Shown one piece after another: positions 63 through 22,858 of a stretch of DNA of 33,429 nucleotides (the first letter of the stretch is position 1; each line of letters begins with the position of its first letter). This DNA comes from Candidatus Nitrosopumilus sp. (GTDB lineage: Archaea > Thermoproteota > Nitrososphaeria > Nitrososphaerales > Nitrosopumilaceae): contig JACERO010000016.1 of the NCBI GenBank assembly GCA_013911135.1, positions 1 to 33,429 of the forward strand, given 5' to 3'. Under the pieces are notes generated by a model, which ran no database searches, was not told the DNA's origin, and saw only the letters and a program-made list of their open reading frames with translations. Both the position numbers and the translations under genes were made by a program.

Positions 63-211
63 GAATGGGCGATTTAGAAATATTCTTTGTTATTTGTTCC
101 AACTGACGGGGTATTACCTTAAATTATTTGGTCAAAAAAGGTATTATTCTAATATGATCTGGTCAATTTTTATTTCATTGAATACATAAATACTCTCAAC
201 TCAGATTCAAA
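63..211. other. Intergenic spacer with repeated heptamer
   Basis: An AT-rich spacer without a convincing gene. It carries the heptamer TGGTCAA twice, at 129-135 and 160-166 (31 bp apart, about three helical turns), just upstream of the TATA-like element at 184-193. This could be a regulator site for the secreted-protein gene that follows, but the repeat is short. Confidence 0.3.
184..193 (+). promoter_or_regulatory. TATA box of the CFI-box protein gene
   Basis: ACATAAATAC is centred about 24 nt before the ATG at 212, the distance expected for a leaderless archaeal transcript. The core ACATAAATA also occurs in the promoters of two PEFG-CTERM genes in this window (minus strand, 9989-9997 and 10907-10915). 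Confidence 0.5.
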
Positions 212-1177
<966 letters not shown>

Positions 1178-7051: not shown

Positions 7052-8217
7052 TCTATCTGGATAATGCGGCATCAACTCAGATTCATGAGGATGTTTTGAA
7101 TTCAATGCTACCCTATCTGAAAGAGCAATATGGAAATCCATCATCTCTACATCGTTATGGTAGATTAGCTCACAAAGCAATTGAAAAATCCAGAAAACAA
7201 ATTGCATCTTTAATCAATGCAGAACCATCTGAAATTTTACTCACATCTGGTGGTACTGAATCAAACAATACTGCCTTACAAGGAATTGCCATGAAAAACA
7301 CCTCTGGGCAAATCATAACTTCCTTAATTGAACATGATGCAATTTTAGAACCATGTAAAAAATTAGAACAAAATGGATTTGATGTAGATTATTTACCAGT
7401 AAACAAGTTTGGAATGGTTGATTCGTCTGTTTTGAAAAGCCATATTTCTAATAAAACTAGTCTTGTCTCTATTATGTTTGGAAATAACGAAGTAGGTACT
7501 ATACAAGCAATATCTGAACTATCCAAAATATGTAATGAAAATAACATTCTATTTCATACTGATGCTGTACAAGCAGTTGGCAAAGTTCCTTTAGATGTTA
7601 AAAAACTAGGAATAGATTTACTATCTATTTCCTCTCATAAGCTCTATGGCCCCAAAGGAATAGGTGTATTATACATCAAAAATGGTATAGATATTGATCC
7701 TGTAATTTTGGGTGGAGGGCAAGAACATGGATTACGTTCTGGAACCGAAAATGTTGCGAGTATTGTAGGATTTGGAAAGGCATGTGAAATGGCAAAAAAT
7801 AATCTAAATGAAAATATCTCTCAAATAAAAAAACTTAGAGACAATCTAGTTGAAAAAATACTAAATGAAATCCCTGAAGTGGTTTTAAATGGCCATCCTC
7901 AATTTCGATTACCAAATAATGCCCATTTCACATTTCTTGGTGTTAATGGTGAAGATCTTATAATCAAACTTGATGAGTATGGAATTGCGGCATCTACAGG
8001 TTCTGCATGTTCTGTAAATACACAAAAAGCTTCACATGTTTTACAAGCAATGGGATTTTCACTTGAACAAATTACTGGTTCTTTGCGATTGACAATAGGA
8101 ATTTTTAATGACCAAAAAGAAATAGAACAAACCGTTGACATTCTCAAAAAAATAGTTCAAGAACTTCGTGCAGTTTCTCCATTCAAAGAAAAATATTCTT
8201 TTGTTTCAAAAAACTAA
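7048..8217 (+). CDS. Cysteine desulfurase (NifS/IscS family)
   Basis: A pyridoxal-phosphate enzyme that removes sulfur from cysteine as a persulfide for iron-sulfur clusters, thiolated nucleosides or cofactors. The 389-residue protein shows YLDNAAST at the N-terminus, SGGTESNN (67-74), the PLP region EHD (H96), HTDAVQ (170-175), the PLP-binding Lys in SSHK (K198), and the mobile loop STGSACS with persulfide Cys C321. The loop resembles the IscS/NifS group I form. The start is TTG within TTGA overlapping the larE stop; the first residues MIYLDNAAST match the usual N-terminus. The tight coupling to larE suggests supply of sulfur to LarE, though a general Fe-S role is equally possible if this is the only copy in the genome. 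It converges on and overlaps by 4 bp the neighbouring PEFG gene. Confidence 0.92.
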   Translation: MIYLDNAASTQIHEDVLNSMLPYLKEQYGNPSSLHRYGRLAHKAIEKSRKQIASLINAEPSEILLTSGGTESNNTALQGIAMKNTSGQIITSLIEHDAILEPCKKLEQNGFDVDYLPVNKFGMVDSSVLKSHISNKTSLVSIMFGNNEVGTIQAISELSKICNENNILFHTDAVQAVGKVPLDVKKLGIDLLSISSHKLYGPKGIGVLYIKNGIDIDPVILGGGQEHGLRSGTENVASIVGFGKACEMAKNNLNENISQIKKLRDNLVEKILNEIPEVVLNGHPQFRLPNNAHFTFLGVNGEDLIIKLDEYGIAASTGSACSVNTQKASHVLQAMGFSLEQITGSLRLTIGIFNDQKEIEQTVDILKKIVQELRAVSPFKEKYSFVSKN

Positions 8218-9008
8218 ATATTAATTTGGAATTTGTTTCTAGATGCTACAATAATTGCCATTATGCCTACAATTAGGATCATCATTACCATAGTGCCAAA
8301 TTCAGGAATAACATAAGTTCCAATAATTTCAATATCTGAATCCCCTTCTTCAAAATTAATTGTTATCGCTCTAGAATTTTGGTGTACTAAAGATTCTTGA
8401 TAGGCAACTTCTATTCCATCTATCAGAATAATAAAAGTATCATCTTTACCATCCTGTTTCTCAGCTCCTATGAATTCTCTAGGTAAATCTAATGTGATAG
8501 CTCCCTCGTCTGTTGCATCAATTTGTACTATTATTGCAAAAATATCTGAATCTACTATCATATCTTTAACTGTACCTCCTTTGATGGTATACTCTACATC
8601 AAATGTTCCAGAACTCCCTGCATCTACTTCAAAACTACTTGTGGTTTCAATTGACCCTGATTCAGGAGTATAACTAAATGTAGTTTGTACTATTTCATTT
8701 TGATAGGATGCTTTAACTATGTATTCTCCAGATTTTTTCCAGAGTGCACCTTCTGCAAGAACTGTTTCTGTAAAGCTGCCATCTTGTGCTACTTGTAATT
8801 GTGCAAGATGTGCGTATGCCGCATCATGAATAATTTGTATTATAACTGGTGTCTCACCAATTACTGTATTTACAATACCTGATATGACAATTGTATCGCC
8901 TTCATCATAATGATTATCATCTGTTTGAATAGAAAGTAAAGATGTTTGAGCAAAAGCAGTTGAAATAAAAAATAAAATTATGATGCCATGAAATATTCTG
9001 GTTTCCAC
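8214..9008 (-). CDS. PEFG-CTERM secreted surface protein (array member 1)
   Basis: 264 residues: a signal peptide (1-20, ending TAFA), a beta-sandwich-like domain (about 24-113, YDEGDTIVISGIV ... EGALWKKSGEYIVKASY), a second domain (about 135-225) with TIKGGTVKD and LPREFIGAE...DDTFIILIDGIEV, then the sorting signal PEFG (235-238), a hydrophobic segment and a short basic tail. PEFG-CTERM is the thaumarchaeal signal thought to be processed by an archaeosortase-like enzyme, so surface attachment is expected. Function is unknown. Unlike the other three array members, its tail differs in both protein and DNA. The start is GTG: there is no in-frame ATG, and the TATA box at 9029-9036 places transcription at this codon. 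A 14-bp palindrome lies in between. Confidence 0.82.
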   Translation of the reverse strand: METRIFHGIIILFFISTAFAQTSLLSIQTDDNHYDEGDTIVISGIVNTVIGETPVIIQIIHDAAYAHLAQLQVAQDGSFTETVLAEGALWKKSGEYIVKASYQNEIVQTTFSYTPESGSIETTSSFEVDAGSSGTFDVEYTIKGGTVKDMIVDSDIFAIIVQIDATDEGAITLDLPREFIGAEKQDGKDDTFIILIDGIEVAYQESLVHQNSRAITINFEEGDSDIEIIGTYVIPEFGTMVMMILIVGIMAIIVASRNKFQINI

Positions 9009-9015
9009 AAGTTTT

Positions 9016-9029
9016 CAAATGCGCATTTG
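9016..9029. promoter_or_regulatory. Perfect 14-bp palindrome between TATA box and start (operator candidate)
   Basis: CAAATGCGCATTTG is its own reverse complement. It sits directly downstream of the minus-strand TATA-like GAAATATAC (about 9029-9037) and ends 8 bp before the GTG at 9008. A dimeric regulator bound here would block transcription initiation. The GCGC centre stands out in AT-rich DNA. Confidence 0.45.
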
Positions 9030-9055
9030 TATATTTCCTTTACTATCAAAAATGA

Positions 9056-9158
9056 AAAAAAGTTGTGATTTTAGTATCTTGGTATGATGCTAAGTCTTGA
9101 CTTTGCAGATATTGCAATTATTGAGATAATTGCTACTGCTAGAATCATAGCTGCAATT
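9056..9158 (-). repeat. Homogenised PEFG tail, copy A
   Basis: This 103-bp stretch, covering the 3' spacer and the last roughly 30 codons of array member 2, is identical base for base to 10012-10114 in array member 3. Similarity continues for about another dozen bases after one mismatch (A at 9159, G at 10115). Confidence 0.9.
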
Positions 9159-9964
9159 ATACCAAATTCTGGAATCACGTAGGTACCAAATATTTCAATT
9201 TGTTCAGCGCCTGCTGGGAACATGATTGTTACTTTGTTTCCAACAATTTCAACATCATCCCACTGTTCGTCATCAACTAGTACCATGAAGATACCATCTA
9301 TGACTGTTGTTTCTGGGTTTATTGTTAATGTTCCATCTTCTTCAGCGTTGATGCTGATGATAATTGAACCATTATCACCACTATTGAGAGTTGCACCAGT
9401 TACCATCCCACCTGATATACTGTATGGTATACATTGATCACCTACAGTTATATCGTCAGCTCCACATTCTATTGGTGCTTCTATTGTAGGTATTGAGTAG
9501 TTTGGTATCCATTCAACTCCACCAGTTAGTTCAACTTTTGCGCTGTTACTTTTTTCAGCACTACCATAGTTTACTTTAATGGTGTAGGTACCGTCGTATT
9601 TCCACATTGCACCTGCTGTGCTTATTGTTGTCTCAAAACTACCATCTTCTGCTACTGTGAGTTGATCAATTGTAACAAGGGAGTTTAATGGACTCACAAC
9701 AGTTACTGTAATTGGAAATCCAGATACATTTGCTACTTGGCCTGTTACCATAATCATGTCATTGTGACCATAATCTGTTTTATCTGTCCAAACAGATACT
9801 GGAATGGATTCAAGTAACATTTCATTTGCTATTGCTCTTGCATCCTCCATGGAACATCCTACACATGCTGCTGGATAATGTTCAGTAGCATATGCTGATG
9901 ATATGGTTAAAGTACCGACTGCAGTCAAAACGGCTAGTAGCGCGAACGACGTACGGTTGTTCAT
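9071..9964 (-). CDS. PEFG-CTERM secreted surface protein (array member 2)
   Basis: 297 residues. It has a signal peptide (1-26, ending SAYA), a short PAACVGCSMEDARAIANEML segment with a CVGC pair, a beta-sandwich-like domain (about 57-148; YGHNDMIMVTGQV ... AGAMWKYDGTYTIKVNYG) and a second domain preceded by CGADDITVGDQC. The second domain contains SISGGMVTGATLNSGDNGSIIISI and IDGIFMVLVDDEQW. PEFG is at 265-268, followed by a membrane segment and the tail AKSRLSIIPRY. The last 33 residues match those of the next two genes except for one Ile/Thr. Neither ligand nor partner can be named. Its promoter shares a 30-bp block with that of the next gene, so the two are probably regulated alike. ATG at 9964 is about 25 nt from the TATA element. 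Confidence 0.85.
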   Translation of the reverse strand: MNNRTSFALLAVLTAVGTLTISSAYATEHYPAACVGCSMEDARAIANEMLLESIPVSVWTDKTDYGHNDMIMVTGQVANVSGFPITVTVVSPLNSLVTIDQLTVAEDGSFETTISTAGAMWKYDGTYTIKVNYGSAEKSNSAKVELTGGVEWIPNYSIPTIEAPIECGADDITVGDQCIPYSISGGMVTGATLNSGDNGSIIISINAEEDGTLTINPETTVIDGIFMVLVDDEQWDDVEIVGNKVTIMFPAGAEQIEIFGTYVIPEFGIIAAMILAVAIISIIAISAKSRLSIIPRY

Positions 9965-9988
9965 CTTGTTGCGATTTACACCTGTCTC

Positions 9989-10018
9989 TATTTATGTATA
10001 TTTAAAAAGAGAAAAAAG
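9989..10018 (-). promoter_or_regulatory. Shared terminator/promoter block, copy 1
   Basis: These 30 bp are identical to 10907-10936. On the minus strand they begin with T-rich tracts (TTTTTTCTCTTTTT), likely the terminator of the upstream PEFG gene, and end in TTAAATATACATAAATA, the TATA region of the gene at 9964. They end 25 nt before that ATG. Confidence 0.6.
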
Positions 10019-10128
10019 TTGTGATTTTAGTATCTTGGTATGATGCTAAGTCTTGACTTTGCAGATATTGCAATTATTGAGATAATTGCTACTGCTAGAA
10101 TCATAGCTGCAATTGTACCAAATTCTGG
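10012..10128 (-). repeat. Homogenised PEFG tail, copy B
   Basis: Positions 10012-10114 are identical to copy A (9056-9158), and 10046-10128 are identical over 83 bp to 10963-11045 in array member 4. Third-codon positions are as conserved as the others, which points to gene conversion or very recent duplication rather than protein-level selection alone. Confidence 0.9.
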
Positions 10129-10881
10129 GACTACAACGCCATCTTTGATATCTACTTCAGTTGAAGCAGTATATTTTGGATCGTCATATTGTCGTGCAGT
10201 TACAGTGTAAAAACCATCTTGTTTCCATAATGGTCCTCCTGTGGTAAATACAGAAGTTAATTCCCCATCAAGCATTGGTGATACTTGAGCAATTGATACT
10301 ACATTTCCATTTGGTGCAGTTACCGTCAATGTAATGTCTTGACTTACTCTGTCGGTCATTCCGATAATTGTGATCATATCAGATCCAATTTCAGATTCTG
10401 CATAAATTTCAATTCCTGCATCTCTAGTAGTGACATTTGGTACAATAATTCCTGTATCTAAATTAGATTCAGTTACAGAAGTTTTTTCAGTCATACCATC
10501 GTTTACTTCAACAAGAACATGTAGTGTATACAATGAATTTGCATGTACTGCTTGCATTACTTCAATTTCATAAAATCCATTTTCAGTCCATGTTGGACCC
10601 ACTATGAAATTTACCATAAATTCTCCATTATCGTCTGGTGTAACTTGCCATACAGCCACTACATTATTTCCACTTGGGGATGTTACTCTAAATGTAACAT
10701 CTGTAACATCTGAAACTGTTTTACCTGTTACAGTAATGGTGTCTGAATTTCTATCAGCTGTAGCTGTGATGGACATTCCTAGACTTTGAGCAAAAGCATC
10801 TTGCTGAATTGCGGTCACTGAAATTAATGACAGTGCCATAAGGGCTATTGCCATTGATGTTGTAGAACGTTTAAAATTCAT
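10027..10881 (-). CDS. PEFG-CTERM secreted surface protein with two tandem beta-sandwich domains (array member 3)
   Basis: 284 residues: a signal peptide (1-31, ending DAFA), then two copies of the same domain, about 36-127 (SDTITVTGKTVSDVTDVTFRV ... TENGFYEIEVMQ) and about 154-247 (SDMITIIGMTDRVSQDITLTV ... GGPLWKQDGFYTVTARQY). Each copy carries the phrase SPSGNNVV or APNGNVVSIAQVSP. It lacks the second domain type found in members 1, 2 and 4. PEFG is at 252-255, followed by a membrane segment and AKSRLSIIPRY. The mismatch between a divergent body and a nearly identical tail is striking. A surface location is inferred from the sorting signal; the role is unknown. ATG at 10881 lies about 26 nt from the shared promoter block at 10907-10936. 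Confidence 0.85.
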   Translation of the reverse strand: MNFKRSTTSMAIALMALSLISVTAIQQDAFAQSLGMSITATADRNSDTITVTGKTVSDVTDVTFRVTSPSGNNVVAVWQVTPDDNGEFMVNFIVGPTWTENGFYEIEVMQAVHANSLYTLHVLVEVNDGMTEKTSVTESNLDTGIIVPNVTTRDAGIEIYAESEIGSDMITIIGMTDRVSQDITLTVTAPNGNVVSIAQVSPMLDGELTSVFTTGGPLWKQDGFYTVTARQYDDPKYTASTEVDIKDGVVVPEFGTIAAMILAVAIISIIAISAKSRLSIIPRY

Positions 10882-10906
10882 CCTAATTCAATCCAGATAT
10901 CTTTGG

Positions 10907-10936
10907 TATTTATGTATATTTAAAAAGAGAAAAAAG
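10907..10936 (-). promoter_or_regulatory. Shared terminator/promoter block, copy 2
   Basis: Identical over 30 bp to 9989-10018. It lies 26 nt from the ATG at 10881, almost the same spacing as copy 1 (25 nt). It therefore carries both the T-rich end of array member 4's transcription unit and the TATA box of array member 3. Confidence 0.6.
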
Positions 10937-10943
10937 ATGAAAT

Positions 10944-11780
10944 TTAGTATCTTGGAATAATACTAAGTCTTGACTTTGCAGATATTGCAATTATTGAGAT
11001 AATTGCTACTGCTAGAATCATAGCTGCAATTGTACCAAATTCTGGAACCACAAATGTACCGATTATTTCGATCTCTTCAGCTCCTGCTGGGAATGCTATG
11101 GTGAGTATTCTTTCCGTTGATGTGGTTGTTTCATCAAAGTCTACTTCCTCTCCATCAATCAAGACAAAGAAGGCATCATCTTCACCATTGATTGTTGCAT
11201 CTAACACAGATCTAGGAATTGTGAGGGTCAGTGAGCCATCTTCTGTAGCTTCAATAGAGATAATCAGTGAATTTGCATCCACATCAGGTGTAATGCCTAG
11301 TAGTTTTCCACCAGTAATCACATATCCTATCAAATCACTAGAACCTTCAACTGACACGGTTGTGTCAGTTACCATAGATCCACCGTCATCACTTGGAGGT
11401 TCTACTGTAGAGCCACCAAATTCAAACGTTGTTGTTGCTGAATTAACATCGTTGTCTCCATATTGAACTGTAACTATGTATGTTCCATCAGCTTTCATCA
11501 ATGCACCTCCTGCAGCTACACTAGTGTTGAATTTTTTATCTTCACCAACTGTGAGCTGATCAATGGAAACAATGTTTCCATTTGGTGCTATCACTGTGAG
11601 AGCTAGGGCATACCCTCCTAGAAGTTGAGTGACTTCTCCTGTAATTAGGATTGTTTCACCTTCAGAATAGGATGCTTTGTCTGTAGTTACTACAACTGAG
11701 CTTTGTCCAAATGCTGGTGCCATACCAATACTTACAATCAAAATTGCAGCTAAGGCAAACACCGATAGATGAGCTTTCAT
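10944..11780 (-). CDS. PEFG-CTERM secreted surface protein (array member 4)
   Basis: 278 residues from the ATG at 11780. The frame is open to 11834, but the extra 18 residues would precede a normal signal peptide (MKAHLSVFALAAILIVSIGMAPAFG) and would run through the TATA box at 11803-11812, so the longer start is rejected. Domains: a beta-sandwich-like domain (about 28-120; YSEGETILITGEV ... GGALMKADGTYIVTVQYG), an acidic linker, then the second domain (VITGGKLLGITPDVDANSLIISIEA ... LTIPRSVLDATINGEDDAFFVLIDGEEVDFDE), closely related in plan to members 1 and 2. PEFG is at 246-249, with the common membrane segment and AKSRLSIIPRY tail. A secreted, sortase-processed surface protein is inferred. 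Confidence 0.85.
   Translation of the reverse strand: MKAHLSVFALAAILIVSIGMAPAFGQSSVVVTTDKASYSEGETILITGEVTQLLGGYALALTVIAPNGNIVSIDQLTVGEDKKFNTSVAAGGALMKADGTYIVTVQYGDNDVNSATTTFEFGGSTVEPPSDDGGSMVTDTTVSVEGSSDLIGYVITGGKLLGITPDVDANSLIISIEATEDGSLTLTIPRSVLDATINGEDDAFFVLIDGEEVDFDETTTSTERILTIAFPAGAEEIEIIGTFVVPEFGTIAAMILAVAIISIIAISAKSRLSIIPRY
10963..11045 (-). repeat. Homogenised PEFG tail, copy C
   Basis: 83 bp identical to 10046-10128. The last few codons and the stop region (10944-10962) differ from copies A and B, so the conversion tract ends inside the gene here. Confidence 0.9.
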
Positions 11781-11802
11781 CAATTTTACGCCTGAATTTA
11801 CA

Positions 11803-11812
11803 CTATTTAAGG
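11803..11812 (-). promoter_or_regulatory. TATA box of PEFG array member 4
   Basis: The minus strand reads CCTTAAATAG, centred about 27 nt before the ATG at 11780. It decides the start of that gene. Confidence 0.55.
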
Positions 11813-11871
11813 TTGTGAAAAAATTTATTGACAAAAAAGAAAAAACACACTTTGCGACGAATTTCAGATTA

Positions 11872-11882
11872 GATATATATTA
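11872..11882 (+). promoter_or_regulatory. TATA box of the rpoH-rpoB-rpoA operon
   Basis: GATATATATTA within the 166-bp divergent spacer. Predicted initiation near 11907 leaves a leader of about 40 nt that holds a strong Shine-Dalgarno sequence, unlike most genes in this window, which look leaderless. Confidence 0.5.
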
Positions 11883-11933
11883 ACCTGAACGTGAATTTTT
11901 GACAGTTTGTGTGTATTCTTTAATGTTCTATTT

Positions 11934-11940
11934 GGAGGTG
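11934..11940 (+). promoter_or_regulatory. Strong Shine-Dalgarno sequence of rpoH
   Basis: GGAGGTG ends 6 nt before the ATG at 11947 and is complementary to the 3' end of archaeal 16S rRNA. It confirms the rpoH start. Confidence 0.75.
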
Positions 11941-11946
11941 TCGTAG

Positions 11947-12198
11947 ATGGCAACTAAGAAAAACCAAGTTCTAGTCCCTGATCATATCTATGTGCCAAAA
12001 CATGAAATTATTCCCAAATCAGAAGGCGAAGAAATTTTAAAAAAATACAATTGCAAACCAACTGAATTACCATTAATCTTTGTAACTGATCCTGCAATTT
12101 TGGGACTTGGTGTAAAACCAGGTGATATAATTAAGATTACCAGAAAAAGTTCAACTGCCGGTACGAGTCTCTATTACAGATATGTGGTGGAAGTATAG
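11947..12198 (+). CDS. rpoH: RNA polymerase subunit H (Rpb5 homologue)
   Basis: The 83-residue archaeal RpoH, equivalent to the C-terminal assembly domain of eukaryotic Rpb5, sits in the lower jaw of RNA polymerase. The family signatures are DHIYVPKHEIIPKSEGEEILKKY (12-34), DPAILGLGVKPGDIIKI and the terminal SLYYRYVVEV. As usual in archaea it heads the polymerase operon. Its TAG is followed at once by the ATG of rpoB with no spacer. Confidence 0.97.
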   Translation: MATKKNQVLVPDHIYVPKHEIIPKSEGEEILKKYNCKPTELPLIFVTDPAILGLGVKPGDIIKITRKSSTAGTSLYYRYVVEV

Positions 12199-15100
12199 AT
12201 GGTACATTCTTCTAACAAACGTTGGCCAGTAATTCAAGATATCTTAAAACGTGAAGGTATTGCGCGTCAACATCTTAACTCATTTGATGAATTTTTAGAA
12301 CGAGGTCTTCAAAGTATTATCAACGAAGTTAGTCAAATAGACATTGAAAATACTGAATATCCTTACAAGATTCAACTAGGAAAAGTCAAACTACAACAAC
12401 CACGAATGATGGAACTTGATGGCTCCATTACTCATATCACACCAGCTGAAGCAAGGCTGAGAAATGTTTCATACTCTGCACCTGTAATGATGGAAGCCAG
12501 TGTTGTAGAAGATGGAAAAATTTTAGAATCTCGATTTGTTCATATCGGCGATGTTCCAGTTATGGCAAAATCAAATGCATGTATCTTACATAATTTCTCT
12601 AATCAAAAATTAATTAAACACGGAGAAGATCCAAATGATCCTGGTGGTTACTTTATTATCAATGGTTCTGAACGAGTCATTGTAGGATTAGAAGATCTTT
12701 CTTACAACAAAATTATTGTTGATAGAGAAACTGTAGGTGGAAATATTGTTTTCAAAGCTAAAGTTTATTCTTCAATTGTTGGTTATCGTGCAAAATTAGA
12801 ACTTGTAATGAAAAACGATGGACTAATTGTTGCTAGAATTCCTGGTTCTCCAGTTGATATTCCAGTTGTCATATTGATGAGAGCACTTGGATTAGAATCT
12901 GATAGAGAAATTGCTGGAGTAGTTTCACTTGTAGATGATCTTCAAGATGAATTGGAAGGTTCATTTGAAAAAGCAGCTGACGTCGCAACATCAAAAGATG
13001 CAATTGTCTACATCAGTAAAAGAATTGCACCTGGAATGTTAGAAGAATTCCAGATAAAACGTGCAGAGACTTTACTGGATTGGGGATTGTTACCACACTT
13101 GGGCAAACATCCTGAAAATAGAAAAGAAAAAGCTCAATTCTTAGGTGAAGCAGCTTGTAAACTATTAGAATTAAAACTTGGATGGATTTTACCTGATGAC
13201 AAAGATCACTATGGAAACAAAGTCATAAAATTTGCAGGACAAATGTTGGCAGACCTGTTTAGAACTGCATTTAGAAATCTTGTCAGAGACATGAAATATC
13301 AATTAGAAAGATCAGGACAAAAACGTGGAATTAATGCAGTGGCCGCAGCAATTAGACCCGGAATTATTACTGATAAACTAAACAATGCTATTGCAACTGG
13401 AAACTGGGGACGTGGACGTGTTGGTGTCACTCAATTACTTGATAGAACCAATTATCTATCTACAATCAGTCATCTTAGAAGAATTCAATCTCCTCTTAGC
13501 AGAACTCAGCCAAACTTTCAGGCAAGAGACTTACATGCAACACACTTTGGAAGAATTTGTCCCAGTGAAACTCCAGAAGGCTCGAATTGTGGTTTGGTAA
13601 AAAACTTGGCACTATCTGGAATTATTTCAGTTAGTGTTCCCTCTGAAGAAATTGTGGAAAAACTCTTTGATCTTGGAACAGTCCATTTCTTTGATGCAAA
13701 AGAAGATTTGAAAAAAGATGGAACTAGAGTATTTGTTGACGGTCGTTTAATTGGATATTTTAAAGACGGTGGAGCACTAGCCGAATCACTTAGAGACCTT
13801 AGACGAAACTCAAAGATTCATCCTCATGTTGGAGTTTCATTTCATAAATCTGACATTGAGGGTTCAACAAAAAGACTTTATGTAAATTGTAATGATGGAC
13901 GTGTCTTACGACCATTAATTATTATCAAAGATAACAAATCATTGTTAACACAAGAACTATTGGATAAAATTTCAAAGAAATTACTTTCTTGGAATGATCT
14001 TTTGAGAATGGGTGTCTTGGAAATGATTGATGCAAATGAAGAAGAAAATTGTTATGTTACTTTAGATGACAAAGATACAAAGAAGCATACTCACCTTGAA
14101 GTATTCCCACCAGCAATTCTAGGTGTAGGTGCTTCAATCATTCCATATCCTGAACACAACCAGTCTCCCAGAAATACATACGAGTCTGCAATGGTAAAAC
14201 AAAGCTTAGGATTCTCTACACCAATGATGAATACTAGTACCTATGTAAGACAACACTTTATGCTATATCCACAAGTTCCAATAGTTAACACTAAAGCAAT
14301 GAAACTTTTAGGATTAGAAGATAGACCAGCAGGTCAAAATTGTATTGTTGCAGTATTGCCATTTGATGGTTATAATATTGAAGATGCCATTGTACTTAGT
14401 AAAGCATCAGTTGATAGAGGATTAGGAAGAAGTTTTTTCTTTAGAATTTATGATGCTGAAGCAAAACAATACCCAGGTGGAATGCGTGATAGCTTTGAGA
14501 TTCCTAATGCTGAAGATAACATACGAGGTTACAAAGGCGAGCGCGCATACAGACTACTAGAAGAAGATGGAGTTGTTGCATCTGAATCTCCAATTAAAGG
14601 AGGAGATATTTTGATTGGTAAAACTAGTCCTCCACGATTTATGGAAGAATACAGAGAGTTTGAATCAACTGGTCCCTACAGACGAGATACCTCTATTGGT
14701 GTAAGACCATCTGAAACTGGAGTTGTAGATACTGTTATTATGACTCAATCAAACGAAGGTGGAAAAATGTACAAAATTAGAGCGAGAGATATGAGAGTTC
14801 CAGAGATTGGTGACAAGTTTGCATCAAGACACGGACAAAAGGGTGTACTTGGAATTTTAGCTAAAGCAGAAGACTTGCCATACACTGCATCAGGAATGTC
14901 TCCTGATGTTTTGATTAACCCTCATGCGTTTCCATCAAGAATGACAGTTGGAATGATGATGGAATCAATTTGTGGAAAAGCTGCAGCATTTCGTGGAAAA
15001 CGATTTGATGGTTCTGCATTTGTAGGAGAAAAAATGGATGAAGTTAAAGAAGTAATGGATGCACATAATTTCAAATATTCTGGTAAAGAAATAATGTATG

Positions 15101-15546
15101 ACGGAAGAACTGGAAAATCATTTCCAGTTGATGTATTTATTGGAGTTGTATATTATCAAAAACTTCATCACATGGTTGCAGATAAAATCCATGCCAGAGC
15201 ACGTGGACAAGTTCAGATGTTAACCAAACAACCAACAGAAGGAAGAGCAAGAGGTGGTGGATTGAGATTTGGTGAAATGGAACGAGACTGTTTGATTGCT
15301 TATGGTGCTTCAATGATCTTAAAAGACCGATTACTTGATGAGTCTGATAAATCTGATATCTTTGTTTGTGAACGATGTGGTTTGGTAGCATATCATGATG
15401 TTAAACAAAGAAAATATGTCTGCAGAGTTTGTGGAGATAAAGCCAAAGTATCATCTGTATCTGTAGCATATGCATTCAAACTACTCTTACAAGAGATGCA
15501 GAGTCTTAACATTGCACCACGATTATTAATCAAGGAGAGAGTCTAA
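12199..15546 (+). CDS. rpoB: RNA polymerase subunit B, unsplit (Rpb2 homologue)
   Basis: The second-largest polymerase subunit, forming one side of the catalytic cleft. At 1115 residues it is the unsplit form (B' and B'' are separate genes in methanogens and haloarchaea). Visible blocks include GGYFIINGSERVIVGLEDLSYN, RDLHATHFGRICPSETPEGSNCGLVKNLAL, GQNCIVAVLPFDGYNIEDAIVLSKASVDRG, GDKFASRHGQKGVLGIL and RGGGLRFGEMERDCLIAYGA. The C-terminal clamp has a zinc ribbon with C1057, C1060, C1075 and C1078. The stop and the rpoA start share one base (TAATG). Confidence 0.98.
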   Translation: MVHSSNKRWPVIQDILKREGIARQHLNSFDEFLERGLQSIINEVSQIDIENTEYPYKIQLGKVKLQQPRMMELDGSITHITPAEARLRNVSYSAPVMMEASVVEDGKILESRFVHIGDVPVMAKSNACILHNFSNQKLIKHGEDPNDPGGYFIINGSERVIVGLEDLSYNKIIVDRETVGGNIVFKAKVYSSIVGYRAKLELVMKNDGLIVARIPGSPVDIPVVILMRALGLESDREIAGVVSLVDDLQDELEGSFEKAADVATSKDAIVYISKRIAPGMLEEFQIKRAETLLDWGLLPHLGKHPENRKEKAQFLGEAACKLLELKLGWILPDDKDHYGNKVIKFAGQMLADLFRTAFRNLVRDMKYQLERSGQKRGINAVAAAIRPGIITDKLNNAIATGNWGRGRVGVTQLLDRTNYLSTISHLRRIQSPLSRTQPNFQARDLHATHFGRICPSETPEGSNCGLVKNLALSGIISVSVPSEEIVEKLFDLGTVHFFDAKEDLKKDGTRVFVDGRLIGYFKDGGALAESLRDLRRNSKIHPHVGVSFHKSDIEGSTKRLYVNCNDGRVLRPLIIIKDNKSLLTQELLDKISKKLLSWNDLLRMGVLEMIDANEEENCYVTLDDKDTKKHTHLEVFPPAILGVGASIIPYPEHNQSPRNTYESAMVKQSLGFSTPMMNTSTYVRQHFMLYPQVPIVNTKAMKLLGLEDRPAGQNCIVAVLPFDGYNIEDAIVLSKASVDRGLGRSFFFRIYDAEAKQYPGGMRDSFEIPNAEDNIRGYKGERAYRLLEEDGVVASESPIKGGDILIGKTSPPRFMEEYREFESTGPYRRDTSIGVRPSETGVVDTVIMTQSNEGGKMYKIRARDMRVPEIGDKFASRHGQKGVLGILAKAEDLPYTASGMSPDVLINPHAFPSRMTVGMMMESICGKAAAFRGKRFDGSAFVGEKMDEVKEVMDAHNFKYSGKEIMYDGRTGKSFPVDVFIGVVYYQKLHHMVADKIHARARGQVQMLTKQPTEGRARGGGLRFGEMERDCLIAYGASMILKDRLLDESDKSDIFVCERCGLVAYHDVKQRKYVCRVCGDKAKVSSVSVAYAFKLLLQEMQSLNIAPRLLIKERV

Positions 15547-18500
15547 TGTCTATTCAAACAATAAAAGCAATTGATGGAATTAAGTTCTCAGTATGGTCTC
15601 CAACTGAAATTAGAAAATATTCTGTTGCTGAAATTACTGCTCCTGAAACATATGATGAAGATGGAATGGCAGTTCAAGGAGGTCTTATGGATGGCAGACT
15701 TGGCACTCTTGAGCCTGGACAAAAATGTCTAACATGTGGAAACACAGCAGCGAGATGTCCTGGACACTTTGGACATCTTGAACTAGCAGAACCTGTCTTA
15801 CATATTGCATTTATTGATAACATCTACAAACTATTACAATCCACATGTCGTTCTTGTGCAAGACTCAAAGTTCCTCAAGAAGATTTAGATATATTTCTAA
15901 AAATCAAAACTAAAAAAGCAGCTTACACTGTAATTTCTCAAAAACGTATTCCAGAACAAATCATAGAGAAAGCAAAAAAAGCAAAAGAATGTCCTCATTG
16001 TGGAAAAACGCAATACGAGTTAATCTTTACAAAGCCAACTATTTTTGTAGAGAAAACAGAAATTGGTGAACATAGATTACTTCCAATTACAATTAGAGAG
16101 AGATTTTCACAAATACTTGATGAAGATTTGAAACTATTAAACTATGATCCTGTTACTGCAAGACCAGAATGGTTTATTCTTCAAGTATTTCCTGTTCCGC
16201 CTGTAACTGTTAGACCATCAATCATTCTTGAAACAGGAATAAGATCAGAAGATGATTTGACACACAAAATGGTTGATATCATTAGAGTTAATCAAAGACT
16301 AAAAGAAAGTAAAGATGTAGGAACTCCACCATTAATTGTTCAAGACTTGGTTGACTTGTTACAGTATCACACTACAACATATTTTGATAACGAAGTTTCT
16401 GGAATTCCACAAGCTCATCATCGTTCTGGACGTCCTCTCAAAACATTAACTCAAAGACTCAAAGGAAAAGAAGGAAGATTCAGAGGTTCATTATCTGGAA
16501 AGAGGGTTGACTTTTCAAGCCGAACTGTTATCTCTCCAGATCCTAACTTGGATTTGTCTGAAGTTGGAGTTCCTACTCAAGTTGCCATGAAACTAACGAT
16601 TCCTGAAATTGTTACAGAATGGAACATTGAGAGAATGAGAAAACTTGTAATTAACGGACCTGATATATTCCCAGGTGTAAATTATATCGTTAGACCTGAT
16701 GGTGTAAAGATTAGATTAGATTTTGTAGAAGATCGTTCTATAATTGCTGAAACACTTGAGAATGGATATCTAATTGAAAGACATCTTTCAGATGGTGATA
16801 TTGTGATGTTTAACAGACAACCATCACTCCATCAAATGTCTATTATGGCTCACTATGTTAAAGTACTTCCAGGTAAAACTTTCAGATTACATCCTTCTGT
16901 ATGTCCTCCATACAACGCAGACTTTGATGGTGATGAGATGAACCTTCATGTTCCTCAAAGTGAAGAAGCAAGAGCAGAAGCAATTCTTTTGATGAGAGTT
17001 CAAGATCAATTAATCTCTCCAAGATATGGTGGCCCAATTATCGGTGCACTAAGAGACTTTGTTACAGGCGCATATCTTCTCACTAAAGATGATACAACAC
17101 TATCTGTCCAAGAATTTTCAAACCTTGCAATGCTTGGTAACTATACTGGTCAACTTCCTAAACCTGCTACTAAAACAAAAGATGGACCAGCATATACTGG
17201 AAAACAACTATTTTCATTATTCCTCCCAAAAGACTTCAACTATGTTCTAACATCAAAATGGTCAAAGGGAACAGGAGGAAAACTAAAAGATGTTGTAATT
17301 AAAAATGGTGAATTAATCAGTGGTGTAATTGATAAAACATCCATTGGTGCAGAAGAACCAGAAAGTGTATTACATAGAATTGTAAAAGACTATGGAAATG
17401 AAGTTGGAAAAAATTTCCTTAACTCTATTCTAATTATGGTTAAACAATTCATCACACATTATGGTTTTAGCTATGGTTTTGGTGATCTTGAAGTTCCAGA
17501 AAAAAATAGACAACAAATTCTAGATGATATTAAATCAACTTATGATATAGTTTCTGATTTGACGCGTCAATATGAGAAAGGAACTCTAAAACTCACAAGA
17601 GGTATGAGACCTGAAGAGGCCTTAGAGGCATACATTGTAAATGAACTAGGTAAGGCAAGAGACAGAGCAGGATCTACTGCAAATGATTCTCTTGATGATA
17701 ACAATGCTGGAAAAATTATGGCTATCACTGGTGCAAGAGGCTCATCCCTAAATGTGGGTCAGATGGCAGGTGCCTTGGGTCAACAATCAAGAAGAGGAGA
17801 TAGAATGAATGATGGTTACAATAATCGAGCATTAACACATTATGTAGAAAATGATCCCAATCCTGATGCACATGGATTTGTGAAATCCAATTATAGAGAA
17901 GGTCTCTCTACATTAGAATTCTTTTTCCATGCAATGGGTGGTCGTGAAGGACTTGTAGACACTGCAGTTAGAACACAACAAAGTGGTTACATGCAACGTA
18001 GACTAATTAATGCATTAGAACACATTCGATTAGAATATGATGGAACAGTAAGAGATCCACACGGTCACATTGTTCAATTCCTTTATGGTGAAGATGGAAT
18101 CGATGTAGCAAAAAGTGATCATGGTGAAGCATTTAACGTTGAGAGATTGACTGAATCTCAAGCCCTTATTGATTCTGGAAAGAAAGCCACAAAAGATGAA
18201 ATTGATACTCTTACTAAGAAATATACAAAGACGTTTAATCCAAGATTAACTTCACTTGTAATTGACACCTTACAGAAATCTGGCATGAGTAAAGACGGTG
18301 TAGAAACTGTATGTAAGAAAGGACTTTTACTTTACAATAAAGCGCAAGTAGAACCTGGACAAGCAGTAGGAATTATCACTGCTCAATCCATTGGTGAACC
18401 TGGTACTCAGATGACTTTGAGAACTTTCCACTTTGCAGGAATTAAAGAAAGAAACGTTACATTGGGTCTTCCAAGACTAATTGAATTAGTTGATGCAAGA

Positions 18501-19337
18501 AAGAAACCTGTCACTCCAACTATGGATATTTACCTTGATGCTGAATCAAAGAAATCCCGAGAAAAAGCAATCGAGGTTGCAAGAAATGTATTACAAACTC
18601 AAGTAAGTGCATTAATTGCTGATACTGAAACTGATTATGCTACAGAAATTAAACTAATTTTGAGCGAAAATAGACTCAGAGAGCGAGGATGCTCTATTGC
18701 AGAGGTAGAAACAGTACTTTCATCAAATAAAAAATTCAAGATGGAAACAACTGGCGAATTAATCACTCTAAAACTAGTTGACGAATGTGATGCTCCAACT
18801 GCAATTGCAATTAGAAATAAAGTTCTTAAAACTACAGTTAAAGGAGTTCCAGACATTGAACGTGTCACATTAGTTCAAAAAGATGATGAATGGGTTATAC
18901 AAACAACTGGTTCTAACATTGCCAAAATACTTGAAGTCAAAGGTATTGACAAACAAAATGTTAGAACAAATAATGTCTTTGAAATTGCAGGAACTTTGGG
19001 TATTGAAGCTGCAAGAAATTCATTGATTAACGAACTAAATCATACTCTGGGCGACCAAGGATTGGAAGTTGATAATAGGTACATCATGTTGGTATCTGAC
19101 TTGATGTGCTCAAGGGGTTACATGCAACAAATAGGTAGACATGGAATTGCTGGTACCAAAGATAGTGTACTTGCAAGAGCCGCATTTGAAATTACAGTAC
19201 CAACAATTGCAAGAGCTGCACTTGGTGGAGAAATTGAACAACTAAAAGGTATCACTGAAAACGTAATTGTTGGAAGTAACATTCCAATTGGAAGTGGCAC
19301 TGTTGATTTATACATGCAAGTAAGCAAGAAAAAATGA
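15546..19337 (+). CDS. rpoA: RNA polymerase subunit A, unsplit A'+A'' (Rpb1 homologue)
   Basis: The largest polymerase subunit in one 1263-residue chain. Most archaea split it into A' and A''; the fused form is a known mark of Thaumarchaeota and relatives. The clamp zinc motif is C61, C64, C71 and H74; a second set is C101, C104, C149 and C152. The catalytic magnesium loop NADFDGDE holds D459, D461 and D463. The bridge-helix region has [22 protein letters not shown]. The A''-equivalent part starts around residue 880-900 and includes [24 protein letters not shown] (trigger loop, about 939-962). A Shine-Dalgarno AAGGAGAG (15532-15539) lies inside the end of rpoB, so translation is coupled. Confidence 0.98.
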   Translation: [1263 protein letters not shown]

Positions 19338-19369: not shown

Positions 19370-19600
19370 ATGGCTTTTGAAATATCAACATTGATGAATA
19401 ATAGTAAAGACAAAATTATTTTGCTCAGAATGAAAAACGATACTACTATTCAAGGTCTACTAAAAGAATTTGATATTCACATGAATTTGACCTTGGATGA
19501 TGCAGAATACGTATCTGATGAGAAATCTGACAAACTTGGAACTATTTTGATACGTGGTGATAACATTTTGGCAGTCTCTATTCCTAAAGAAGATTCTTAG
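19370..19600 (+). CDS. Sm-like archaeal protein (LSm)
   Basis: A 76-residue LSm protein, a family that forms rings of six or seven subunits and binds U-rich RNA. The Sm1 motif is DTTIQGLLKEFDIHMNLTLDDAEYV, with the expected Asp-x-x-x-Asn RNA-binding residues (DIHMN), and the Sm2 motif is ILIRGDNILAVSI, with the RGDN signature. It starts 32 bp after rpoA. An AT-rich ATTAAATTA at 19347-19355 could be its own TATA box, so it may be transcribed both with rpoA and alone. Confidence 0.93.
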   Translation: MAFEISTLMNNSKDKIILLRMKNDTTIQGLLKEFDIHMNLTLDDAEYVSDEKSDKLGTILIRGDNILAVSIPKEDS

Positions 19601-19646
19601 AAATTTATCCATCAAACATTAAATTCAATCTTTGACAAATTTTATC

Positions 19647-20111
19647 ATGTATTTGCCTTTTCTATTTTTTCCATTAATTCTTTTTCCTGCATTTGGGGAA
19701 TCAATACCTGATTATAATGAACCCTATTCTCCAATTTTTACTGACAAGGCAACATACTCGTGGACAGACAAAATAAAAATTACAATAATAGTGCCAAGTT
19801 GGAATACTGATAGATATCTAATTGATTCAATCGGAGATACTGAAGATCATCCAATTAAAATTTCAACAAGAGACCATTCCTTAGAACCTTATCGATTTAC
19901 TGAAACAGACGTTAATTCAGGAATTTTCACCGCTGAGGTTATTCTTACAGGTTTCTCACATGATGCTGATGGTGATGGAAATATTGATACAATACCTAGA
20001 ACCACTGGTACTGGACCTACTAGTGGATTTTTAGAAGTTGACAGAGATTCAGCCATTACAATCTCATTTGAATTTGCAGATGGTGTAGTATTAAGAGTCA
20101 GTTCCTGTTAG
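19647..20111 (+). pseudogene. 5' part of a frameshifted secreted-protein gene
   Basis: The start is ATG at 19647: a signal peptide (MYLPFLFFPLILFPAFG) follows and CATTAAATTC (19616-19625) lies about 27 nt upstream. The frame also offers TTG at 19632, which I reject. The mature part reads FTDKATYSWTDKIKITIIVPSWN ... ETDVNSGIFTAEVILTGF and SAITISFEFADGVVLRV, a repeated beta-sandwich module common in thaumarchaeal exported proteins, in which each module ends in SFEF followed by a WNIG block. The frame ends at TAG 20109-20111, just where WNIG should come. VPVSWNIGTIQF continues in the +1 frame from 20101. The gene is therefore broken near 20097-20103, by one extra base or two missing ones. Confidence 0.7.
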
Positions 20112-20826
20112 TTGGAATATTGGAACAATTCAATTTTCTAACGAGAATTTTTTTTCAGATGATTCTGTAATAATACGTGTAGTTGATTTTGATATGAATC
20201 TAAACCCTGAAGCACTTGATCAAATTTCAATTCAAATTTTTTCAGATTCTGATATTGCAGGAATTGAAGTTAATGCAGTGGAGACATCTGAAAGTTCTGG
20301 TTCATTTGTTGCCACCATTTCTTTGTCTCAAACTTTGTCTTCTAGTGGAAATAAGCTTTATTCAATAACTGGAGATGAAATATTTGCCAAGTATGATGAC
20401 TATACATTACCAAAACCATATTCTACATTAGATAATTTAGAAATTGAAACTTTTGCAAAAATTGATTCATCTATTCCACCAATTAAGCGACTTGAAAATT
20501 CTCAAATTCTTTTGTCTGATAGTCTTGGTAATCAATTACAATCATTTTCATCAAATAAACAACTGCAAATAATTGGAACTATAACAAACGATCATAATTT
20601 TAAACAGAGCTTTGTTTATCTCTTTCAAGTAAAAAATACTATGGATTCTATAGAATCAATTTCATGGATTCAAGGTGAACTATCACCCAAACAAAGTCTA
20701 GATGTTTCTCAATCATGGATCCCTAAAAAATCTGGAACATATCACATTGAAACTTTTGTTTGGAATTCTCTTGATGAACTAATTCCATTATCTCCTGTAA
20801 TGTCAACTTCGATAACAGTTGAATGA
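20101..20826 (+). pseudogene. 3' part of the frameshifted secreted-protein gene
   Basis: Read from 20101 this frame gives VPVSWNIGTIQFSNENFFSD, then SVIIRVVDFDMNLNPEALDQ, ... SDSDIAGIEVNAVETSESSGSFVATISLSQTLSSSGNKLYSI and YDDYTLPKPYSTLDNLEIETFA. It continues directly from the 5' part and runs to TGA at 20824-20826. The last 120 residues (IPPIKRLENSQILLSDSLGN ... PKKSGTYHIETFVWN) form a further beta domain. There is no PEFG signal or membrane segment at the end. The ATG at 20194 is only an internal Met (DFDMNLNPEA), and no start or TATA box fits there, so independent expression is unlikely. Confidence 0.7.
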
Positions 20827-20878
20827 AAAAGTATGATTTCTTCGTGATTATTAAATAGAAAATTATGTTTTTAGTCGT

Positions 20879-21898
20879 GTGTTAGGATACTTGCTAGGAA
20901 TAACTCTAGTGTTAACCGCATTATCACCTTTTATTTTTACAGAAGTTTTTGCGGATTCATTTGTTGTTGATTTTAATCAGCAACAATACCATAGGGGTGA
21001 CTCTCTTATCATTTCAGGAGAAATTCTTGATTTTGGAATGTCAGTTATTGCGATAAGCATCTATGATCCTGATGGAAAAATTTTATCTGCAAATAATTTA
21101 GAAATTTCGCCTCAAAAAACTTTCTCTAAGACAATCTCACTTGACTCTCCCTTTTATGAAAAAATTGGAGAATACATGCTAAAATTAAATTATGGTTCGA
21201 TTTCTGAAAATCATTATTTTGTTATAGACTCTGAATACTCTGAATCTAACATTTTAGTTGATGATTTTGAAAAAACTGAAATTATTTTGCTTTATACTGA
21301 CAAAACACAATACACTGACAAAGATTTTATCAAAATTACCGGTCTAGTTTCTGCATTGGATTCCCCTACAGTGTTAATGGGAGTTTATGATCCATTTGGA
21401 ATGCCTGCAGGATTTTATTTTGGCTCAGTTGATTCTAATTTAGAATTCTCTACAAGCTTTCTTGTAAAATCTGGAGTTAATTTTAGAGTGGATGGTACAT
21501 ATTCAATAAAAGCATATTATGCAGAAACAGAAGCAATGTCTTTTTTTGATTATTACAAAGATCCACAATCTATAATTGAACACACTATTGAAGAAATAAC
21601 CGAAGTATCATCAGATGAAATTATTTCTGACACTAACAATATCTCATCAGATGAAAAAATAATTAAGAAAGAAAAAAATGACGTTAATTATAATTCTAAT
21701 AATGAAAATTCAATTATCCAAAATGATATACAAGAAACTTCTATTATAAAAACACAAAATTCTAAAATTAAAAAAGTAAAACCAATTAACAAAAAAAATA
21801 CTTTAAAAAAAATTATACCTAAAAATGAAATTAAAAAACAAACTAATCTTACTGTAGAAGATATAGAATTAGGTAAATTACAAATCAAATTAATCTGA
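20879..21898 (+). pseudogene. 5' part of a frameshifted secreted beta-sandwich/TPR protein gene
   Basis: Starts at GTG 20879 with TTATTAAATAG (20847-20857) about 26 nt upstream, hence leaderless. It has a signal peptide (1-22, ending EVFA), then two beta-sandwich-like domains: YHRGDSLIISGEILDFG ... EKIGEYMLKLNYG and YTDKDFIKITGLVSALD ... RVDGTYSIKAYY. These match the domain of the PEFG and CFI-box proteins. After them comes a Ser/Asp/Lys/Asn-rich linker of about 90 residues and TVEDIELGKLQIKLI, where the frame stops at 21898. The continuation NQINLKCDSSTFTDTISYYDGMG lies in the -1 frame from about 21881, so one base appears to be missing near 21880. The protein is named 5' part because the TPR section belongs to it. 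Confidence 0.65.
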
Positions 21899-22454
21899 AA
21901 TGTGATTCAAGTACTTTTACTGATACAATTTCATATTATGATGGAATGGGACCTGCTTTGTATCGACTATGTAAATTTGATAGTTCTTTGAATTTCTTTA
22001 ATGGTTCCTTAATTGACAATCCTAATGATGTAGAAATTCTTGTAAACAAAGGTTCTACTTTAGGGAAATTGGGATATTTTTCTGAGGCAATAATGTATTA
22101 TGATCAAGTAATCAATATTGATCCTGATTTCCTCCCTGCTAAAAATAACATGGCTAACGCTCTTGCAAATCTAGGGCATCATAATGAAGCTATTTCATTA
22201 TACAATGAAATTCTATTACAAAATCCTCATTACACTACTGCGAAAAAAAATCTTGAAATTGAATTATCTGAAACTTCACAAATTCATAATGTAGATGATA
22301 TAGTGGATGAATTTAACACTACAAATATTCTCAATCAAAAATCATTTTTAGATGAAAAAACTATTTTACTTGAATTAAAAAAACAAAAACCAACTACTTT
22401 TTTGAAGAGGCAAGTCTTGTATTTTCCTCTTTAGTTTCTTTATTTGGTTTCTAA
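21883..22454 (+). pseudogene. 3' part with TPR repeats, again frameshifted near its end
   Basis: In the frame of the ATG at 21946, coding continues upstream without stop as NQINLKCDSSTFTDTISYYDGMGPALYRLCK, so the Met is internal. TPR units follow (FDSSLNFFNGSLIDNPNDVEILVNKGSTLGKLGYFSEAIMYYDQVINIDPDFLPAKNNMANALANLGHHNEAISLYNEILLQNP), which usually mediate protein-protein contacts. The open frame ends at 22434, but adding one T to the T6 run at 22398-22403 would extend it as FFEEASLVFSSLVSLFGF to TAA at 22454, a more natural end. If no shift is assumed, a 162-residue TPR protein from 21946 to 22434 remains possible, but I see no promoter for it. Confidence 0.6.
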
Positions 22455-22534: not shown

Positions 22535-22858
22535 ATGAGTAAGATACTTGAAAAATCATTGAAAGATGCCCTCAAAGAGGATAAGTTAACGATGGGTACT
22601 AAACAAGTTTTGAACTCTGTAAAAAATTCCAAGCTACTTGTATTGTCTCAATCAGTAAAAAAAGAAATGTTTGAGAAAATTGAATCAGATGCAAAAAAAG
22701 AAAAAATACCATTAGTGAACTTTCAAGGAACATCAGTCGCATTAGGTAGACTATGTGGCTTACAATTTAGAATTTCAACAATTTCATTTACATCAATAAC
22801 TGATGCTAACATCAAATCAATTCTAAAAGATACAGAAGCTGAGGAAAAAAATGAATAG
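22535..22858 (+). CDS. rpl30e: Ribosomal protein L30e
   Basis: A 107-residue large-subunit protein of the L7Ae/L30e RNA-binding family. The core is GTKQVLNSVKNSKLLVLSQSVKKEMFEKIESDAKKEKIPLVNFQGTSVALGRLCG, with the expected G-T-K near the N-terminus and GTSVALGRLCG, the loop that contacts kink-turn RNA. In archaea L30e typically lies between rpoA'' and nusA, as here apart from the inserted genes. Confidence 0.95.
   Translation: MSKILEKSLKDALKEDKLTMGTKQVLNSVKNSKLLVLSQSVKKEMFEKIESDAKKEKIPLVNFQGTSVALGRLCGLQFRISTISFTSITDANIKSILKDTEAEEKNE

Follow-up and report, generated by a model that had tools for sequence, protein, structure and literature searches.

Within a 33,429-nucleotide stretch of DNA from a Candidatus Nitrosopumilus sp. 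(the window), two adjacent genes for putative secreted proteins change reading frame before reaching their ends, raising the question of whether the genes are decaying, vary in phase or have been misread. The window corresponds to contig C10 of G000, a draft genome (1,709,843 bases in 107 contigs, 98.6% complete), and the named relatives that share the locus belong to Nitrosopumilus and other Thaumarchaeota. Gene 1 (19632-20826) and gene 2 (20879-22454) sit between an LSM-domain gene (19370-19600, + strand; Pfam LSM 2e-20) and a ribosomal protein L30e/L7Ae-type gene (22535-22858, + strand; Ribosomal_L7Ae 6.9e-13), both of them unbroken. Upstream, an unbroken frame of 1263 aa (15546-19337, + strand) is what we take, following a preliminary reading of the sequence, to be RNA polymerase subunit A. 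That sequence-only reading had seen no break in the rpoB-rpoA flank, which holds and can be extended to 26 other window genes with matches in the one-contig relative G007, each in one frame (27 query ORFs, two of which are halves of one gene cut by a sampling boundary). A plasmid search gave no match.

In a DNA alignment of the locus with 18 relatives, the window carries four gaps, all on the + strand, that occur in none of the others. The 5´ fragment of gene 1 (19632-20111, + strand; stop at 20111) has a signal-like N-terminus starting at TTG 19632 or ATG 19647 and covers the initial half of a protein of the S-layer C-terminal type. Between 20094 and 20095 lies a 2-nt gap that sets the window apart from all 18 relatives (lesion A), and the second half, detected by tblastn against relatives, follows in a shifted frame (20095-20826, + strand; stop at 20826). 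In gene 2, the 5´ fragment (20879-21898, + strand; stop at 21898) comprises a signal-like N-terminus, a beta-sandwich-like region and a low-complexity linker. Across a 1-nt gap between 21881 and 21882, again relative to all 18 relatives (lesion B), it is succeeded by a TPR fragment in a shifted frame (21883-22434, + strand; stop at 22434; TPR_2 5e-12, TPR_1 1.2e-11). Another 1-nt gap, between 22396 and 22397 (lesion C), precedes a C-terminal tail in the third frame (22395-22454, + strand) that matches the conserved C-terminus of the orthologues and that, for example in L008, L010 and L016, is read in one frame with the TPR part. The last gap, also of 1 nt, falls between 22447 and 22448, just before the natural stop of gene 2 (lesion D).

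Three frameshifts had been proposed from the sequence, near 20100, near 21880 and at a T6 run (22398-22403). The breaks themselves stand, the first two corresponding to lesions A and B, but lesion D makes the gaps four. The end of gene 2 is indeed in a third frame, but the lost base lies beside the T6 run: the run is also six T long in the two nearest relatives, L032 and L033, and lesion C is therefore directly upstream of it, not in it. Runs of at least seven T or A inside genes 1 and 2 do not coincide with the lesions. The four trimmed pieces of the two genes contain no in-frame stops. Chance is excluded as the source of the frame changes; whether mutation or error lies behind them is considered separately below.

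In a tree of RNA polymerase A and L30e, the window falls into one group with L033 (casp-thauma3) and L032 (support for the trio 100/99). By tblastn, in the orthologue comparison that the sequence-only reading had called for, both genes are single open frames in these two nearest relatives, gene 1 encoding 398 aa in each, and gene 2 encoding 461 aa in L032 and 516 aa in L033. The frames of the window are disrupted relative to intact orthologues, as those of pseudogenes are.

Gene 1 has a recognizable relative in the structural database. A profile of nine orthologues matched residues 1369-1733 of 1734 of PDB 8c8k, 'Cell surface protein', with E 1.1e-109, and a single orthologue matched it with E 1.5e-87; the profile matched no other PDB sequence at E 0.1 or better. 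These matches were made with intact orthologues, to one and the same of which both window pieces align. We take 8c8k to be the Nitrosopumilus maritimus S-layer protein NmSLP (Nmar_1547) of PMC11153153, which cites 8C8K and gives a length of 1734. The same paper describes ten Ig-like domains, of which the first eight end near residue 1499 and the ninth, located at the foot of the layer next to the membrane, ends near 1616, with a structurally unresolved tenth proposed as its anchor (PMC11153153). From the matched interval and this domain layout, we conclude that gene 1 is a stand-alone foot of the Nitrosopumilus S-layer protein, corresponding to the C-terminal end that faces the membrane. Homology of the gene 1 orthologues with NmSLP spans the last ~365 residues of the latter, whereas gene 1, at ~398 aa, lacks the first ~1370; holding only those ~365 of 1734 residues, it does not contain the full multi-domain array able to build a lattice. 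On contig C19 of G000, a long S-layer-type relative has an open frame of 1771 aa. Gene 1 might add a further copy of the membrane-proximal S-layer domains to the pseudoperiplasm, possibly serving as a spacer or anchor. It is intact in 33 of the 34 other loci that hold the whole gene (two of the 34 apparently repeat counted contigs), so that its loss is unusual; the sole broken copy, in L025 of draft G017, is interrupted at a different place, about L025 1800.

Gene 2 is arranged as a beta-sandwich-like region, a low-complexity linker, TPR repeats and a conserved short C-terminus. Its N-terminal region, predicted from inspection of the sequence here and in the earlier reading to be secreted and beta-sandwich-like, matched no Pfam family. 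In placing TPR repeats behind such a region, gene 2 resembles other TPR-containing secreted proteins, but differs from them in that the N-terminal region lacks a Pfam family. The product would be a secreted TPR scaffold beside that of gene 1. We also considered a SlaB-type S-layer anchor; the match was not significant (E 0.044, 12.7 bits against a cut-off of 700) and is only a lead. Of the 26 relatives whose distinct loci show the whole interval, 16 have an intact gene 2. In the other 10 it is lost or damaged: seven lack it, L019 retains a relic, L036 has a stop, and in L037 the frame is broken toward the 3´ end, possibly through an error of that draft. When 24 of these relatives are placed on a tree together with the window, the state of gene 2 changes five times, three of the changes being forced by well-supported branches. 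The losses and these changes mark gene 2 as an often-lost accessory; loss of gene 1 is the rarer event. In L036 (Nitrosopumilus sp. DT_77, 10774-12414), the one in-frame stop lies between the two conserved parts of gene 2.

We also asked how common such breaks are elsewhere in the genome, comparing 893.5 kb of G000 (61 stretches, window included) with 1.2 Mb of G007. When G000 was searched with G007 proteins, 669 genes had a counterpart (515.6 kb aligned), and 31 of them showed 33 frame breaks in total; the reverse search gave two in 658 genes. After verification by codon-position differences and removal of five doubtful genes, namely L110 (rRNA), L114, L103 and L106 (doubtful frames, by judgement) and L092|7914 (failed coding filter), 26 of 653 coding-verified G007 genes had a frame-broken counterpart. 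These breaks occupy 27 sites and affect 25 different G000 genes, as L119 and L129|8992 match the same broken gene. Breaks were present in 21 of the 47 sampled stretches that hold coding-verified genes, with no clustering by stretch beyond chance (11 pairs against 12.6 expected, for 32 sites including doubtful ones). Purely local damage was rejected on this spread, and the window breaks are therefore one case of a genome-wide property. Other assemblies gave three frame breaks and three internal stops in 218 orthologues from 33 loci, a narrow control in which the same few genes recur and two loci repeat contigs. An apparent 23S rRNA indel (L147), considered as possible error evidence, was dropped because the segment is equally long, at 1778 nt, in G013, G018, G002 and G009.

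The breaks avoid conserved genes. By G007-G000 identity, a measure that is not independent of the compared pair, broken genes number 10 of 86 below 70%, 10 of 163 at 70-80%, 6 of 323 at 80-90% and 0 of 81 at 90% or above. Only six of the 26 are at least 80% identical, against 17.0 expected by length (binomial P 1.3e-5), and the bias persists without the window (P 3.5e-5), without genes under 60% (P 9.6e-5) and once redundant rows are taken out (6 of 25 where 16.8 are expected, P 1.2e-5). Raw counts favor secreted-like genes (11 of 117 broken versus 15 of 536), but in a logistic fit, where identity and length matter for breakage, a crude secretion signal adds nothing to those two (P 0.38). Applied to 481 genes of at least 150 aa, a fixed rule called 13 internal stops in ten of them (three of the ten, L091, L103 and L106, being doubtful frames), compared with 2 in 1 of 451 in the reverse direction. 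From 65 stop positions in the 669 genes, we picked eight nonsense genes by eye, all but one of which (L130) pass the fixed rule; the 38 stop positions in 658 genes of the reverse direction lay mainly in short frames or close to the ends of genes. The eye-picked stops add seven genes to the broken set, for a total of 33, and show no conservation bias, with four of the eight genes at 80% identity or above against 5.2 expected.

The gaps also span a narrow range of sizes. Among 19 clear single-gap events, 16 are 1-nt deletions, two are 2-nt deletions and one is a 2-nt insertion. The 19 events show no homopolymer preference, the longest nearby run averaging 3.5 against a background of 3.2 (P 0.76). 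A valley of coverage at low GC is not convincing as a source of the breaks, which have 32.7% GC against 33.1% for the background (P 0.07); three window break sites are low in GC, at 31, 26 and 28%.

Selection on the two genes was assessed from codons changed along the branches of the trio. The ratio of nonsynonymous to synonymous changes in genes 1 and 2 together was 57/55 for the window, 41/47 for L032 and 55/40 for L033, giving no indication of relaxed selection on the window branch (P 0.57 versus L032, 0.33 versus L033). A very recent loss would show no relaxation either, and this null result is therefore compatible with a young pseudogene. The window branch has 112 changed codons in genes 1 and 2 versus 88 (L032) and 95 (L033), an extra length contributed by both synonymous and nonsynonymous change; for five control genes, it has 265 versus 315 and 307.

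Elsewhere in the genome, a second aminotransferase copy (G000:C26, L065 350-1750) combines a frameshift with a net deletion of about 86 nt, which may fit a real pseudogene, and a full-length open copy is carried on G000:C66. The TldD-type gene, broken in G000, is also degraded in the congener G009, where pieces with many stops remain (G009:C1:57305-58667), an apparent independent loss. Within G000 itself, both PmbA/TldD-type genes are frame-broken, the one in L163 (G000:C59) twice and the one in L070 (G000:C31) as well. An internal stop further interrupts an oligopeptide-type ABC ATPase on C59, and another a solute-binding protein in L056 (G000:C17).

Several explanations can be weighed against these observations. 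Phase variation, in which slippage at the T6 run would toggle the tail of gene 2, draws on the run adjoining lesion C, but with the run equal in length in the nearest relatives and the missing base outside it, this proposal of the sequence-only reading is unsupported. The three further lesions, in other contexts, would keep the genes off and would not be reversed by T6 slippage, and seven-T matches on either strand of the window number 44 against 47.7 expected; we consider the mechanism extremely improbable. We give little more credence to the idea that each piece is a functional gene in its own right, or that programmed frameshifting links them; this reading is very unlikely. The pieces do keep codon-like substitution patterns, but the orthologues are fused in one frame and require no recoding, no shared signal is visible at the breaks, and none of the 18 aligned relatives has orthologues that end at the same places as separate genes.

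More weight is due to the explanation that the organism's own genes are intact and that the four gaps arose in an indel-prone draft through mistakes of sequencing, assembly or polishing; we judge this a substantial possibility though not the leading one. G000 is a draft in 107 contigs with far more breaks than the closed G007, few breaks were found in the other sequences tested, the window genes lack relaxed selection, and 18 of the 19 clear events genome-wide are 1-2 nt deletions. Real gene decay usually gives a wider range of indel sizes, so this narrow spectrum also counts against decay, as do a gene 1 otherwise intact in nearly all loci and eye-picked nonsense genes without conservation bias. 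Blind errors, however, should not avoid conserved genes, yet the breaks do (P about 1e-5); instead of being independent of conservation, they fall in genes of at least 80% identity in 6 of 26 cases where 17 are expected. Nor are the indels homopolymer-driven, as in errors of the pyrosequencing or nanopore type, the lesions lying away from the longer A/T runs of the same genes, and internal stops and the ~86-nt deletion occur besides. An account by error would need correction to have acted mainly in conserved genes, for example by homology-guided or cross-recruiting polishing. The local patch of sequence errors suggested earlier keeps some probability, but the breaks are not merely local and an error process would have to spare conserved genes. 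If error is the cause, about 4% of the tested genes in the draft (26 of 653) are falsely split, and these are mostly fast-evolving genes, the ones that comparative studies care about.

We find it somewhat more likely than error that the genes have decayed, and on balance favor a reading in which the two adjacent secreted-surface-protein genes were recently inactivated by the four small deletions, alongside other young pseudogenes across the genome. Of the three options originally offered, two neighbouring genes decaying is the best supported, with the amendment that the process is genome-wide and biased to weakly conserved genes, not purely local. Avoidance of conserved genes is the pattern that decay filtered by selection should leave, and the broken aminotransferase copy and the losses elsewhere, of the TldD-type gene in G009 and of gene 2, likewise favor real mutation. 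Young prokaryotic pseudogenes are similar in their small deletions, intact orthologues and bias to weakly conserved genes; the window genes differ from them in that the indels are unusually narrow in size (1-2 nt) and relaxation is not measurable.

Under gene decay, the gaps would be present in the DNA of the living cell, each gene would be non-functional, and the small deletions would have been fixed recently in the lineage. The loss would presumably be tolerated because genes 1 and 2 are dispensable accessories of the surface layer, the long S-layer-type protein still being encoded. It is doubtful, in our estimation, that the pattern, with the S-layer foot and its TPR neighbour included, reflects an early burst of erosion in this lineage that falls on secreted, surface and peptide-handling functions, its mutations being dominated by single-base deletions outside repeats and so pointing to an unusual mutational process. 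Gene decay through small deletions is ordinary. If real here, it would present a marine ammonia oxidizer at an early stage of genome erosion. It would also show that a stand-alone S-layer-foot gene, though conserved, is open to loss in a genome whose long S-layer-type gene remains intact in frame. PMC3043068 counts 6 pseudogenes in N. maritimus and 74 in the 454-sequenced N. limnia. Judged by titles and abstract openings, the literature on Nitrosopumilus frameshifts and pseudogenes contains nothing on this locus, and the passages used from the papers cited here describe no stand-alone S-layer foot.

Elsewhere in the window, four tandem genes of similar length on the minus strand (8214-11834) cross-match as a local family of secreted paralogues. 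Relatives of one of these paralogues weakly match the N-terminal region of gene 2 (within 20885-21247) as well as window positions 182-592.
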